Of a stretch of DNA of 10,527 bases, positions 5,118-10,513 are shown piece after piece. Source of the stretch: Candidatus Nealsonbacteria bacterium RIFCSPHIGHO2_02_FULL_43_13 (lineage in GTDB: Bacteria > Patescibacteriota > Minisyncoccia > Minisyncoccales > MHMH01). The stretch's first letter is position 1. Each line of letters starts with the position of its first letter. The notes under the pieces were generated by a model, which did no database searches, had not been told where the DNA came from, and saw only the letters and a list, made by a program, of their open reading frames with translations. Made by a program: the position numbers and the translations under genes. The DNA is taken from assembly GCA_001819295.1 (NCBI GenBank), contig MHMD01000030.1, forward strand, positions 1 to 10,527. The letters are read 5' to 3'.

Positions 5118-5191
5118 TGCGGGATCGTCTAATGGTAGGACACATTCCTCTGAAGAATGATATCTTGGTTCGAATCCAAGTCCCGCAGCCA
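5118..5191 (+). tRNA. tRNA-Gln (anticodon CTG), CCA encoded
   Basis: A complete cloverleaf is present. The acceptor TGCGGGA (5118-5124) pairs with TCCCGCA (5181-5187), with discriminator G5188 and encoded CCA 5189-5191. The D-arm is GTCT/GGAC with loop AATGGTA. The anticodon stem CATTC/GAATG is perfect, with loop CTCTGAA, so the anticodon is CTG (5150-5152), reading CAG. The variable loop is 4 nt. The T-arm is CTTGG-TTCGAAT-CCAAG. It starts 3 nt after the HEG stop codon. The first pair T-A is typical of bacterial tRNA-Gln. Confidence 0.95.
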
Positions 5192-5234
5192 ACACATTAC
5201 ACGCCGAGTGACTGAGTCGCATAAAAGTAATTAT

Positions 5235-5735
5235 ATGAAATCTTGGATATCTCCAAAAACGAAGAAAGGATTAAAAAGTAAAATTCATGGAAGAGGTATT
5301 TTTGCCATAGCTCTAATTAAAAAAGGTGAAGTTGTTGCGATTAAAAAAGGTCATTTGCTTACAGGTGCCCAGATAAAAAAGCTTGGCACGCGGCATCATT
5401 ACGATCTTAAAATAGGCGACGATCTTTATATTGGTCCCAATTGTAAGGACGAGTTTGAGGATTCAATGGTTTTTATAAATCATTCTTGCAGTCCGAATGC
5501 TGGATTTAAGGGGCAACAAGCTACCTTTATTGCGATAAAAGACATTAAGAAAGGAGAAGAAATAGTTCTCGATTATGCGATGTTTGATGACGACGAAAAA
5601 AATATCATGAAGTGTAACTGTGGATTCTCAAATTGTCGAAAAATAATCACTGGAAAAGATTGGAAGAACCCAAAACTCCAGAAAAAGTATAAAGGATGTT
5701 TTTCGCCATTTATACAAAAAAAGATTAATAAATAG
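5235..5735 (+). CDS. SET-domain protein lysine N-methyltransferase
   Basis: This 166-residue, single-domain protein has every SET landmark in order: GLKSKIHGRGIFA (12-24), the N-terminal SAM-binding strand; NHSCSPNA (82-89), the pseudoknot core; EEIVLDYA (108-115), with the catalytic-type Y114; and a post-SET zinc motif C127-x-C129-x4-C134. A basic tail (DWKNPKLQKKYKG, FSPFIQKK) follows. It is expected to transfer methyl groups from SAM to a protein lysine; the substrate is unknown. The frame remains open upstream to 5157, but that part lies in tRNA-Gln, so ATG 5235 is chosen. No SD is seen; the AT-rich bases just upstream could be a -10 of a leaderless transcript. It is followed by a terminator near 5831. 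SET proteins are scattered in bacteria, so lateral acquisition is plausible. Confidence 0.9.
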   Translation: MKSWISPKTKKGLKSKIHGRGIFAIALIKKGEVVAIKKGHLLTGAQIKKLGTRHHYDLKIGDDLYIGPNCKDEFEDSMVFINHSCSPNAGFKGQQATFIAIKDIKKGEEIVLDYAMFDDDEKNIMKCNCGFSNCRKIITGKDWKNPKLQKKYKGCFSPFIQKKINK

Positions 5736-7981: not shown

Positions 7982-8016
7982 ATGTTGATTGACGACGTTA
8001 AAATTAAAATCATCGC
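7982..8016 (+). repeat. 35-bp direct repeat, right copy (start of intact obgE)
   Basis: This is the partner of 7270-7304. It coincides exactly with codons 1-11 and part of codon 12 of obgE, with the repeat beginning at the ATG in both copies. Confidence 0.9.
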
Positions 8017-8950
8017 GGGACACGGCGGCCGAGGAGCCGTGGCTTTTAATAAGACTAAAATGAATTTGGGCCCGGCCGGAGCTAACGGCGCTCGGGGCGG
8101 CAGTATTTTTTTAGAGGGCATCTCAAACATCGACGCGCTTAACCAGTTTCGTTTCAAGAAAAAGGTTCTGGCCCAAAACGGCGAAAACGGCAAAACCCAA
8201 TTTAATGACGGAAAAAGCGGCCAGGATTTAATTATTAAAATTCCGGTCGGCACGGTTATAACTGATTTGGTTACGGGCAAAAGCATCGAGATTATCGCTA
8301 TTGGCGAACGATTGCTCGTCGCTCGAGGCGGAAAAGGCGGCAAAGGCAATTTGAATTTCCGTTCCTCGACCAATACCACCCCGATGCAATACGGCAAGGG
8401 TTTGCCTGGCGAAGAGCGCGAATTAAAACTGGAACTTAAACTTATTGCCGATGTCGGGTTGATCGGTTTGCCCAACGTCGGTAAATCAAGTTTATTGAAT
8501 ACCCTGACTAATGCTAAAAGCAGGGTTGCCAACTATCCCTTTACCACGCTTAATCCAAGCTTGGGCGTTTATTTTGAGCTGATTTTGGCCGATATTCCGG
8601 GGTTGATTGAAGGAGCTTCTAAGGGCAAAGGTTTGGGTATTAAGTTTTTGCGCCACGTTGAGCGGACGAAAACTCTTTTTCATCTTATTTCTGTAGAATC
8701 ACCAGATCCGGTTCAAGATTATCATGTTATTCGGCAGGAGCTGGGCGCTTACAACAAAGAATTATTAGAGAAACAAGAGTATGTTTTTTTAGGCAAAAGC
8801 GATCTTGTTGATAAAGTTGAACTCAAGAGAAAACTCAGCGAATTAAAAAAGATAGGCATTAAAGCCGTGCCGATTTCCATCATCGACGATGAAAGCATGA
8901 AAAGCGTGGAAGCGATCTTGCGCAAGCTTATCAAGCAGAAAATAAGTTAA
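7982..8950 (+). CDS. obgE: Obg-family ribosome-assembly GTPase
   Basis: This 322-residue P-loop GTPase acts in 50S maturation and stress control. The N-terminal glycine-rich Obg domain covers 1-155 (GHGGRGAVAF, GPAGANGARGG, RGGKGGKGNLNF, LPGEE). The G domain shows G1 GLPNVGKSS (162-170), G2 YPFTTLNP (185-192) and G3 DIPGLIEGASKGKGLG (204-219). FLRHVERT follows at 222-229. At G4 the usual NKxD reads GKSD (271-274), with Gly for Asn. G5 is weak (VPISIID). The protein ends at the G domain: the C-terminal OCT domain of longer Obg proteins is absent, as in many compact genomes. AAGGAG at 7959-7964 is 17 nt from the ATG, too far for a normal SD. Its own former leader was displaced to 7230-7269 by the toxin-antitoxin cassette, so it probably depends on read-through from that operon. 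Confidence 0.93.
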   Translation: MLIDDVKIKIIAGHGGRGAVAFNKTKMNLGPAGANGARGGSIFLEGISNIDALNQFRFKKKVLAQNGENGKTQFNDGKSGQDLIIKIPVGTVITDLVTGKSIEIIAIGERLLVARGGKGGKGNLNFRSSTNTTPMQYGKGLPGEERELKLELKLIADVGLIGLPNVGKSSLLNTLTNAKSRVANYPFTTLNPSLGVYFELILADIPGLIEGASKGKGLGIKFLRHVERTKTLFHLISVESPDPVQDYHVIRQELGAYNKELLEKQEYVFLGKSDLVDKVELKRKLSELKKIGIKAVPISIIDDESMKSVEAILRKLIKQKIS

Positions 8951-8972
8951 GTAACGACACCTCTTTAATAAG

Positions 8973-9000
8973 AAAAAGGAGAGCAGAAGCTCTCCTTTTT
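8973..9000. terminator. bidirectional terminator between obgE and the radical SAM gene
   Basis: AAAAAGGAGAGC (8973-8984) pairs perfectly with GCTCTCCTTTTT (8989-9000) around AGAA. T tracts occur on both strands, so it can end obgE transcripts (plus) and the convergent gene (minus, stop at 9046). Confidence 0.9.
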
Positions 9001-9045
9001 TATTTTGTTCGTTACTCAATTTTTATTAATTGATGTAATAAAATA

Positions 9046-10500
9046 TTACCAAGAATTCGGGCCTTGTTGGGTGTCACAGGACTGACAACCACCCTGACAA
9101 CCAGTGTCGCAACCCTGGCAATATTTTTCGCAACCTTGGCAAGAACGTTCGCAGCGACTTTGGCAGGAGTCGCAGACAAGACAGCTATCGCAAAATTGAC
9201 ACGAGTCACAATGTTGGCAACTATGCTCGCACGTTTTTTGGCAGTCATCACAAGTTTGGCATTCAAGGCAACTTTGACAACTACTTTCGCACGTTCTTTG
9301 GCAGCTTTCACAACCGCCATAACAATTTTCACAATCGTAACATCTACCGCAGTTTCTTTGATGTTCACTTTGAAGAATTAGTTGAGCTGAATTTCTAAGG
9401 CTTAGAAATGTCGCGACGCGTAATTTGCATTCATTTTTTTCGGGGTTAGCAGAATCGCCGTTTGCTAAAAGATTACTCGTCCAACATCCGCCATTGCAAT
9501 GGTTCCTAGCCGGACAATCAATACACGTTTCAGGGATTTTCTCGCAGCGAGGAGGCAGTATCGATTCCTCAATGGCCGTTCTTATTGCCGCTGGCGTGTT
9601 TTGAGATGCATTAATAATCGCGAACTCCGGCGTATTGGTAAGGTGGTGGCAGAAATAAAGTTTTCCGTCAACGCCGATAGCCCAGAGTCCCTTGCCGGCG
9701 CCGCAGTAAGTAAAGCGGTCAATTACTTTCTTTCTTTGCTCCAATTTAATTATTGTGCTTATCTTTTTGCGATGCTGGTATACCTTCTTAGTCTCTTTAT
9801 GAGCTTCCGCAATACCTTCAGCCCATTTTTCAATTGCTTTCTGATCCCACGGCATATTATAGGCGGGGAACAAACCAATAACTTTAAATCCGAGCCCCAG
9901 AATTGTTTCGGCGATTTCTGGTAGAGATCCTGCATCTTCTGGAAGGACAGTGACCCTGGCCGTATCATCGGGAGTGATCTGCAGTGCGAGAGGGATGTTT
10001 TTGACGACATCGGCAAAAGACGGTTTACCGTTCGCATAGGGGCGATTTTTGTCGTGGATTTTTGCCGGTCCATCAATTGAGCAGTGAATCCCGGCTTTCT
10101 CTTTGAGCATGTGCTTGGTTTTTCTTTCATCCAGCGCAATCAGATTCGAGGTCAGCGACCAAGTGAATTTTGTTCCTTTTTCTTCAAAGGAGCGTCTGGC
10201 AGTTGCGTTGAGTTCTAAGATTTCTTCCCAGGCTAAGAGAGGTTCGCCGCCCATGTAATGGAAGTTCACTTCTTTCAGTTTTGGTTCAAAGATAGCGCTT
10301 AGATTACTTGCTGCAGCGAGGACACTACTGACACGCATCTTTTGCGAGCCTTTGTTCCCGTAATAGCAATAACCGCATCTTAGCTGGCAACTGTTGGTCG
10401 CATCGATCATCAAAGACAAGTCAAACTTTTCACGACTCTCATAGTAGTTGCAAAACAAGACATTATTCTTTTTATTCTGCTCTTGCTGTGTAATAGTCAT
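9046..10500 (-). CDS. radical SAM/SPASM peptide maturase-like enzyme fused to a cysteine-ladder tail
   Basis: The protein has 484 residues. The radical SAM site is CxxxCxxC at C38, C42, C45, followed by YMGGEPLLAW (82-91), the SAM-binding GGEP. A SPASM domain for auxiliary [4Fe-4S] clusters follows: C266-x12-G-x4-C284, then C326-x2-C329-x5-C335-x3-C339 and C358, plus C319. This anSME-like plan is typical of enzymes that modify peptides or proteins (thioether/sactionine maturases, Cys- or Ser-oxidising sulfatase maturases). Residues 384-475 are unlike any standard enzyme domain: 28 Cys spaced by 2 or 3 residues, rich in Gln, Asp, Glu and Ser. That tail may be a built-in substrate or a metal-binding segment. 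ATG 10500 has an SD (AAGGAG, 10508-10513 on the opposite strand) 7 nt upstream. The gene is convergent to obgE. Nothing upstream is visible, so a partner peptide gene could lie outside. Confidence 0.88.
   Translation of the reverse strand: MTITQQEQNKKNNVLFCNYYESREKFDLSLMIDATNSCQLRCGYCYYGNKGSQKMRVSSVLAAASNLSAIFEPKLKEVNFHYMGGEPLLAWEEILELNATARRSFEEKGTKFTWSLTSNLIALDERKTKHMLKEKAGIHCSIDGPAKIHDKNRPYANGKPSFADVVKNIPLALQITPDDTARVTVLPEDAGSLPEIAETILGLGFKVIGLFPAYNMPWDQKAIEKWAEGIAEAHKETKKVYQHRKKISTIIKLEQRKKVIDRFTYCGAGKGLWAIGVDGKLYFCHHLTNTPEFAIINASQNTPAAIRTAIEESILPPRCEKIPETCIDCPARNHCNGGCWTSNLLANGDSANPEKNECKLRVATFLSLRNSAQLILQSEHQRNCGRCYDCENCYGGCESCQRTCESSCQSCLECQTCDDCQKTCEHSCQHCDSCQFCDSCLVCDSCQSRCERSCQGCEKYCQGCDTGCQGGCQSCDTQQGPNSW
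9076..9351 (-). repeat. coding repeat: 28-cysteine ladder, CxxC/CxxxC
   Basis: This stretch encodes residues 384-475. Of 27 Cys-to-Cys gaps, 17 have two residues and 10 have three. A supermotif CQ-x-x-CE-x-S-CQ-x-C recurs at residues 400, 420 and 446. Both Cys codons are used, so the periodicity is kept at protein level rather than by simple DNA repetition. Confidence 0.9.
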
Positions 10501-10507
10501 CTTCCTT

Positions 10508-10513
10508 CTCCTT
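10508..10513 (-). promoter_or_regulatory. Shine-Dalgarno of the radical SAM gene
   Basis: Read on the minus strand this is AAGGAG, 7 nt before ATG 10500. It supports that start over later in-frame ATG codons (for example Met31 or Met55), which would lose the N-terminal strand. The promoter lies beyond the window. Confidence 0.8.

Follow-up and report, generated by a model that had tools for sequence, protein, structure and literature searches.

Among the closest described systems, the freyrasin maturase PapB forms Cys-Asp or Cys-Glu links, accepts Cys-Xn-Asp for n = 0-6, and acts on a target that holds Cys-X3-Asp/Glu motifs, according to passages of PMC9413430. Within a protein subunit, QhpD joins Cys to Asp and to Glu by thioethers, as a passage of PMC11002830 describes. 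CteB connects Cys to Thr, and in a streptococcal case the link runs from Cys to Asn (passages of PMC11002830 and PMC8326336). The SCIFF target, a peptide separate from the enzyme, has six Cys in 45 residues (in the latter source's passage). The borosins are self-modifying N-methyltransferases whose core peptide lies at the C-terminus of the enzyme chain (passage of PMC7878506). Among the open-licence PMC papers that literature searches listed, there was no description of C-[DEQN]-x-C ladder proteins, of the viral cassettes reported below, or of a fused form.

The gene considered here lies in a stretch of 10,527 nucleotides, hereafter the window, from Candidatus Nealsonbacteria bacterium RIFCSPHIGHO2_02_FULL_43_13 (Table 1). 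An earlier note on this DNA had read the product as an enzyme with intact radical SAM and SPASM motifs followed by 28 Cys in 92 residues, spaced two or three residues apart, and the translation, the family scores and a 15-sequence alignment all bear this out. The radical SAM motif is C38-x3-C42-x2-C45, the SPASM cysteines are C266, C284, C326, C329, C335, C339 and C358, and all ten motif Cys (three radical SAM and seven SPASM) are invariant in 15/15 aligned sequences. Radical_SAM (PF04055; 40.8 bits, cut-off 29.5) is the sole Pfam match and places the protein in the superfamily, and the alpha-N-methyltransferase domain that marks borosins is absent. TIGR04085 (45.3 bits, cut-off 27) and the seven cysteines agree in identifying the SPASM domain.

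Table 1. Features at the locus, with positions in the window
Feature	Position	Strand	Basis
Radical SAM/SPASM enzyme with C-terminal Cys ladder	9046..10500	(-)	ORF, 484 aa, ATG start; family matches
AAGGAGAAGG, ribosome-binding-like, just 5' of ATG	10504..10513	(-)	By eye from sequence
CxxxCxxC radical SAM motif, Cys 38, 42, 45	10366..10389	(-)	Translation and alignment
SPASM domain cysteines 266-358	9427..9705	(-)	NCBIfam match and alignment
Cys ladder, 28 Cys/92 residues, gaps 2 or 3 only	9076..9351	(-)	Residues 384-475 of translation
Obg-type GTPase (obgE), convergent neighbour, outside proposed system	7982..8950	(+)	61-63% identity matches
Terminator-like hairpin between convergent obgE and enzyme genes	8972..9001		Reported on + strand

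Among the best 25 of the 38 NCBIfam matches of the enzyme, the top family is PapB (NF047865) with 179.1 bits, below its curated cut-off of 340. Membership of that family would also imply a thioether that runs from Cys to a non-alpha carbon of Asp or Glu. It is followed by the Nif11-type (133 bits, cut-off 519), SCIFF (TIGR03974; 112, cut-off 425), QHNDH/QhpD (TIGR03906; 104, cut-off 453) and CXXX-repeat (97, cut-off 350) families, all likewise below cut-off. Of solved structures, the chain nearest in sequence is PDB 5wgg (E 1.3e-19), which I take to be the SCIFF maturase CteB, and the enzyme also matches phrog_1802, a radical SAM family that one viral enzyme tested matches as well. No RRE recognition domain was detected with NCBIfam or Pfam, and the best family match begins at residue 29, which leaves too little N-terminal room for one.

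The 27 gaps within the ladder comprise 17 of two residues and 10 of three. At the Cys frequency of the core (3.4%), the binomial chance of at least 28 Cys is 2.8e-19, and the chance that every gap is two or three, given 28 Cys with the ends fixed, is 2.9e-16. The Cys codons are mixed (16 TGC and 12 TGT) and tandem repetition in the DNA is weak, with a single array of 2.2 copies at 80% match, so the pattern is one of the protein rather than of a fresh DNA repeat. NCBIfam models gave zero matches to the tail at E 10, a weak result given filters that discard most weak matches. As a query, the tail found itself and nothing else in 246 genomes of the order, and it had no match among plasmids, where the BLAST low-complexity filter may mask some. 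No separate precursor gene of the kind found in RiPP cassettes was seen at the locus: the ORF lists, inspected by eye, hold no other Cys-rich ORF near the gene, where an 18-N scaffold gap interrupts the sequence from 27 bases past the start codon on the upstream side.

Searches for relatives of the enzyme in whole genomes, in four overlapping sets that each include its own genome, gave 6/60 matches at E 1e-10 (relatives), 4/383 at E 1e-20 (class), 1/379 at E 1e-22 (phylum) and 2/247 at E 1e-20 (order), the top non-self identity among the genome matches listed being 31%. A profile scan of genome contigs confirmed six relatives (L146-L151), none with a ladder that looks real. Plasmid and phage records gave matches about 22-30% identical among those listed, and none of the 12 such loci examined (L152-L163) has a C-terminal ladder. 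Across the examined loci, none of 39 radical SAM-like ORF rows has more than 10 Cys among its final 110 residues, and such a C-terminal tail occurs in none of the relatives examined. The earlier note had held that homologues lacking the tail in an unchanged context would speak against a fusion of maturase and substrate. Tail-less relatives exist; the ones from genomes share no more than 31% identity with the window enzyme and are too distant to count. Exact-peptide scans of viral and genome contigs turned up no close relative of the window protein, and genome, plasmid, phage and viral-contig searches found no orthologue that bears the tail. Conservation of the fusion thus lacks support, which counts against reading the tail as a substrate in cis. 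Elsewhere in the same order, genome G023 carries four ladder-free radical SAM genes within about 9 kb (L004, L007, L008 and L009; contig C7, 95-104 kb).

Viral contigs present the ladder in another setting. Seven Cys at gap two, sought as a pattern in the DNA, occurred in at least 120 stretches of them, and among the ORFs of at least 60 aa in these stretches one, in L045, matched the core of the window enzyme. This L045 enzyme lies directly downstream of two Cys-ladder proteins, one of 944 aa with a C-terminal ladder and one a free ladder of 262 aa, and upstream of these is a tape-measure-like protein (PF10145, 87.7 bits). Three viral profile scans returned 5, 29 and 10 loci on 31 different contigs, of which 13 carry the cassette (10 after dropping three near-identical pairs). 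Its order is the same in 13/13. A phage tail-region protein that ends in a ladder comes first, then a free protein made of Cys ladder, and last the SPASM enzyme, which is PapB-like; the distance from one open frame to the next is -31 to +84 nt. The earlier note had proposed a search for homologues in which the tail is a separate ORF beside the enzyme, and these 13 contigs, with a free ladder directly upstream of a PapB-like enzyme, are such cases. The cassette contigs are those at least 35% identical to the query; in the other 18, at 22-33% identity, the DNA examined showed no ladder by the criterion used.

Measured by open frame, the free ladders are 118-314 aa long with 30-83 Cys, and their first Cys stands at residue 14 or earlier, which leaves scant room for a leader. 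The ladder-ended protein matches phrog_8917, of unknown function, in 3/3 cases tested. In all 13 cassette enzymes 7-21 Cys precede the radical SAM motif, in segments that resemble pieces of ladder. Searches with these viral proteins returned little: the ladder-ended protein of L045, queried with its front part, had zero matches in named phages, the free ladder of L171 found nothing there (the BLAST low-complexity filter may mask matches), and the free ladder of L140 found itself alone in viral contigs. A viral ladder profile recovered 4/4 viral records as positive control and 0/383 class genomes; because it also fails to detect the window's own tail at E 1e-6, the 0/383 says little about tails of the window type.

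Several details of the viral loci deserve separate record. The ladder-ended protein of L171 (2888-5980) has a weak match to CBM_4_9 (20.3 bits, cut-off 25.9), which would be compatible with a tail part that contacts a receptor. The cassette enzyme at L175 (5747-8071; contig IMGVR_UViG_3300033150_002113) measures 775 aa because of an insertion, intein-like by eye, that splits its radical SAM Cys motif, and the other 12 cassette enzymes span 445-545 aa by open frame. The enzymes at L045 (9120-10676) and L140 (6001-7494) read C-x3-C-x3-C instead of CxxxCxxC, with one extra residue (Pro). Long viral CxxC ladders of a different grammar occur at L087, L096, L107, L037 and L056, in which Cys is often followed by Ser, Thr or Ile and the next Cys preceded by Asn, Asp or Gly, and the DNA examined around them has no ORF that matches the window enzyme.

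Set beside the described systems, the window protein shares with the PapB/freyrasin maturase the radical SAM and SPASM domains and the best NCBIfam match, which is also that of the four viral enzymes scanned (187-230 bits). The Cys-X3-Asp/Glu motifs of the PapB target have a counterpart in the tail, where an acid stands at offset +4 from Cys eight times. The window protein differs in falling below the family cut-off and in its presumed target, which is part of the same chain and holds Cys at a much higher density, with no separate precursor gene found. QhpD resembles it as a SPASM enzyme that makes Cys-Asp/Glu thioethers within a protein, whereas the window enzyme is well short of the QhpD cut-off and QhpD modifies the product of a separate subunit gene (annotated in L156). 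The SCIFF maturases supply the closest solved chain and likewise have a Cys-rich target, but here too the family cut-off is far from reached and the target is a separate peptide. Borosins keep enzyme and substrate in one chain with the core at the C-terminus, the same logic as proposed here, although their enzyme and chemistry are unrelated and involve no radical SAM domain. The viral cassettes (for example L045, L169, L171 and L199) combine a PapB-like SPASM enzyme with C-[DEQN]-x-C ladders and a ladder-like segment in cis, but their ladders also stand in separate genes and on the tail-region protein, and their in-cis segment is N-terminal.

The likeness between the ladders can be put in numbers. 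Asp, Glu, Gln or Asn directly follows Cys (position +1) at 23/28 Cys of the window tail (82%), at 55-74% in eight cassette ladders, and at no more than 44% (the next value being 25%) in 57 other viral ladder segments. Within the window tail, Asp, Glu or Gln follows 22 of the first 27 Cys, a count that 20,000 shuffles never reached (mean 10.5). A model of positions +1 and -1, with nine cassette ladders as its training set, rates the window tail at 3.72 bits per Cys. Cassette ladders withheld from training reach 3.30-4.55, and the highest value among 34 other segments is 1.32; the control ladders are imperfect, since many are low-complexity or antisense frames. The likeness of the window tail to the cassette ladders could be convergent, with polar residues needed for solubility. 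Given this need, the imperfect controls and the failure of the viral profile to detect the window tail, the two kinds of ladder are alike in grammar, short of demonstrated homology. Gln makes up 11 of the 28 residues at +1 in the window and is absent from the acceptors named in the passages of PMC9413430, PMC11002830 and PMC8326336, and its abundance there without a named acceptor role counts against the tail as substrate in cis.

In a 15-sequence alignment the viral cassette enzymes are 21-26% identical to the window enzyme, which sits on a long branch in a tree of 46 sequences and 322 columns (this tree omits the interrupted L175 enzyme, ORFs shorter than 330 aa, all rows of L008, L009 and L150, and also L176, L178, L179, L181, L185, L188 and L199). 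A constraint that groups the window with the viral enzymes is accepted (AU p = 0.25), and one that groups it with a QhpD-like plasmid set is accepted too (AU p = 0.52). As neither grouping is rejected, what connects window and viruses is the enzyme family, the grammar of the ladders and their in-cis architecture rather than a clade.

What, then, does the tail do? On balance, and with belief only just ahead of doubt, I read the gene from its sequence as probably encoding a radical SAM/SPASM maturase of ranthipeptide-like type that forms thioethers and would naturally act on a Cys ladder, here fused at its own C-terminus. The earlier note's idea of a maturase-substrate fusion is thereby upheld in part: the free ladder beside the enzyme on 13 viral contigs supports ladders as substrates, and with that the fusion, but the tree neither supports nor rejects common descent with the viral enzymes. 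The ladders are rich in known acceptor residues (Asp, Glu and Asn) beside Cys, which, by analogy with characterised enzymes, would fit thioether chemistry. The radical SAM cluster would make a 5'-deoxyadenosyl radical, which would take a hydrogen from the side chain of Asp, Glu or a similar residue beside a ladder Cys; the Cys sulphur would then close the thioether with the SPASM clusters assisting. Should the reaction recur down the length of the tail, within one enzyme molecule or across a pair, a stapled, oxygen-stable rod may result, and covalent tethering of the ladder could stand in for an RRE. Modification of the tail, the type of bond and self-modification are what I infer here. The viral Cys segments lie at the opposite end of the enzyme and the viral ladders have genes of their own, and both facts count against a substrate in cis. 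On the same side, incidental reading of the contig brought no gene for export or for a peptidase to notice.

The same viral segments lend themselves to another account, in which the tail serves for docking or mimics a substrate: contacts between ladders would recruit a separate ladder target or make the enzyme a dimer, while the tail would be unmodified or modified incidentally. A role as recognition handle is natural when viral enzymes bear ladder-like segments despite separate ladder proteins next door, and the undetected RRE agrees with it. Against it, no target in trans is visible in the window's own genome, which at 92% completeness holds no second tail-like match at E 0.001, and I consider docking unlikely. 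SPASM enzymes require several Fe-S clusters, and 28 closely spaced Cys with acidic neighbours could also serve as a metallothionein-like metal-binding or Fe-S/redox store of free thiolates, perhaps feeding the clusters of the enzyme. The 39 related ORF rows with few Cys at their ends indicate, however, that such enzymes commonly manage without a tail; storage does not predict the D/E/Q grammar that the tail has in common with the enzyme-linked viral ladders, and the missing NCBIfam match of the tail tells against it weakly, given the filters. I regard storage as slightly less likely than docking.

That the fusion has no function at all, being an assembly join, a recent frameshift or a gene in decay, appears very improbable. 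It is true that the fusion occurs once, that no orthologue was found and that the scaffold gap lies close to the start codon; but core and tail lie in a single open frame that no gap interrupts where they join, the periodicity is kept despite mixed codons and weak DNA repetition, and obgE ties the contig to its lineage.

Returning to a maturase that modifies its own tail, the viral cassettes invite a wider and more tentative proposal, one that I would sooner doubt than assert. C-[DEQN]-x-C ladders may form a class stapled by dedicated PapB-like maturases, comprising in tailed phages a tail-region protein together with the rod protein that accompanies it, and in a cell of Patescibacteria-like type a self-modifying fusion, the product being a cross-linked, redox-stable rod and not a small RiPP. 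If so, radical SAM thioether chemistry would extend beyond small peptides to structural protein rods, a phage tail part included, and an odd class of Cys-rich viral proteins would be explained. The fused form would add a new variant to radical SAM maturation. The window protein would then be a one-gene test system with enzyme and substrate in one chain, free of leader and RRE, and peptides with many staples could be genetically encoded by this route.

The contig that carries the window is 20,239 bases long and belongs to a draft genome of 524 kb. The Obg protein has full-length matches of 61-63% identity in 4/8 other genomes of the same family, which supports the contig as part of the lineage, and weak or no matches in the other four. 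Around obgE in four genomes of the same family the window enzyme has 0/4 matches, and obgE alone was matched of the 13 window-contig proteins tested against these regions. The weak Obg matches are in G001, G003 and G004 (E about 1e-9 to 1e-10) and G007 has none; in these four genomes Obg is either diverged or missing from the assembly, and G001 is listed as 99% complete despite its weak match. Terminator-like sites number two against a shuffle mean of 2.0, so the hairpin between the convergent genes is no evidence by itself. Past the scaffold gap, upstream, lie a small protein, presumably SWIB-like, and then a membrane-like protein. Family matches identify a Phd/ParE-type pair, a SET-domain protein and a LAGLIDADG protein among the other genes of the window, and a reading of the ORF list adds GlgC-, FtsX-, FtsE- and peptide-release-factor-like proteins. 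The LAGLIDADG protein ends just ahead of a tRNA-Gln (5118-5191), which overlaps the called start of the SET-domain ORF (5157-5735), so the SET-domain protein probably begins further downstream.
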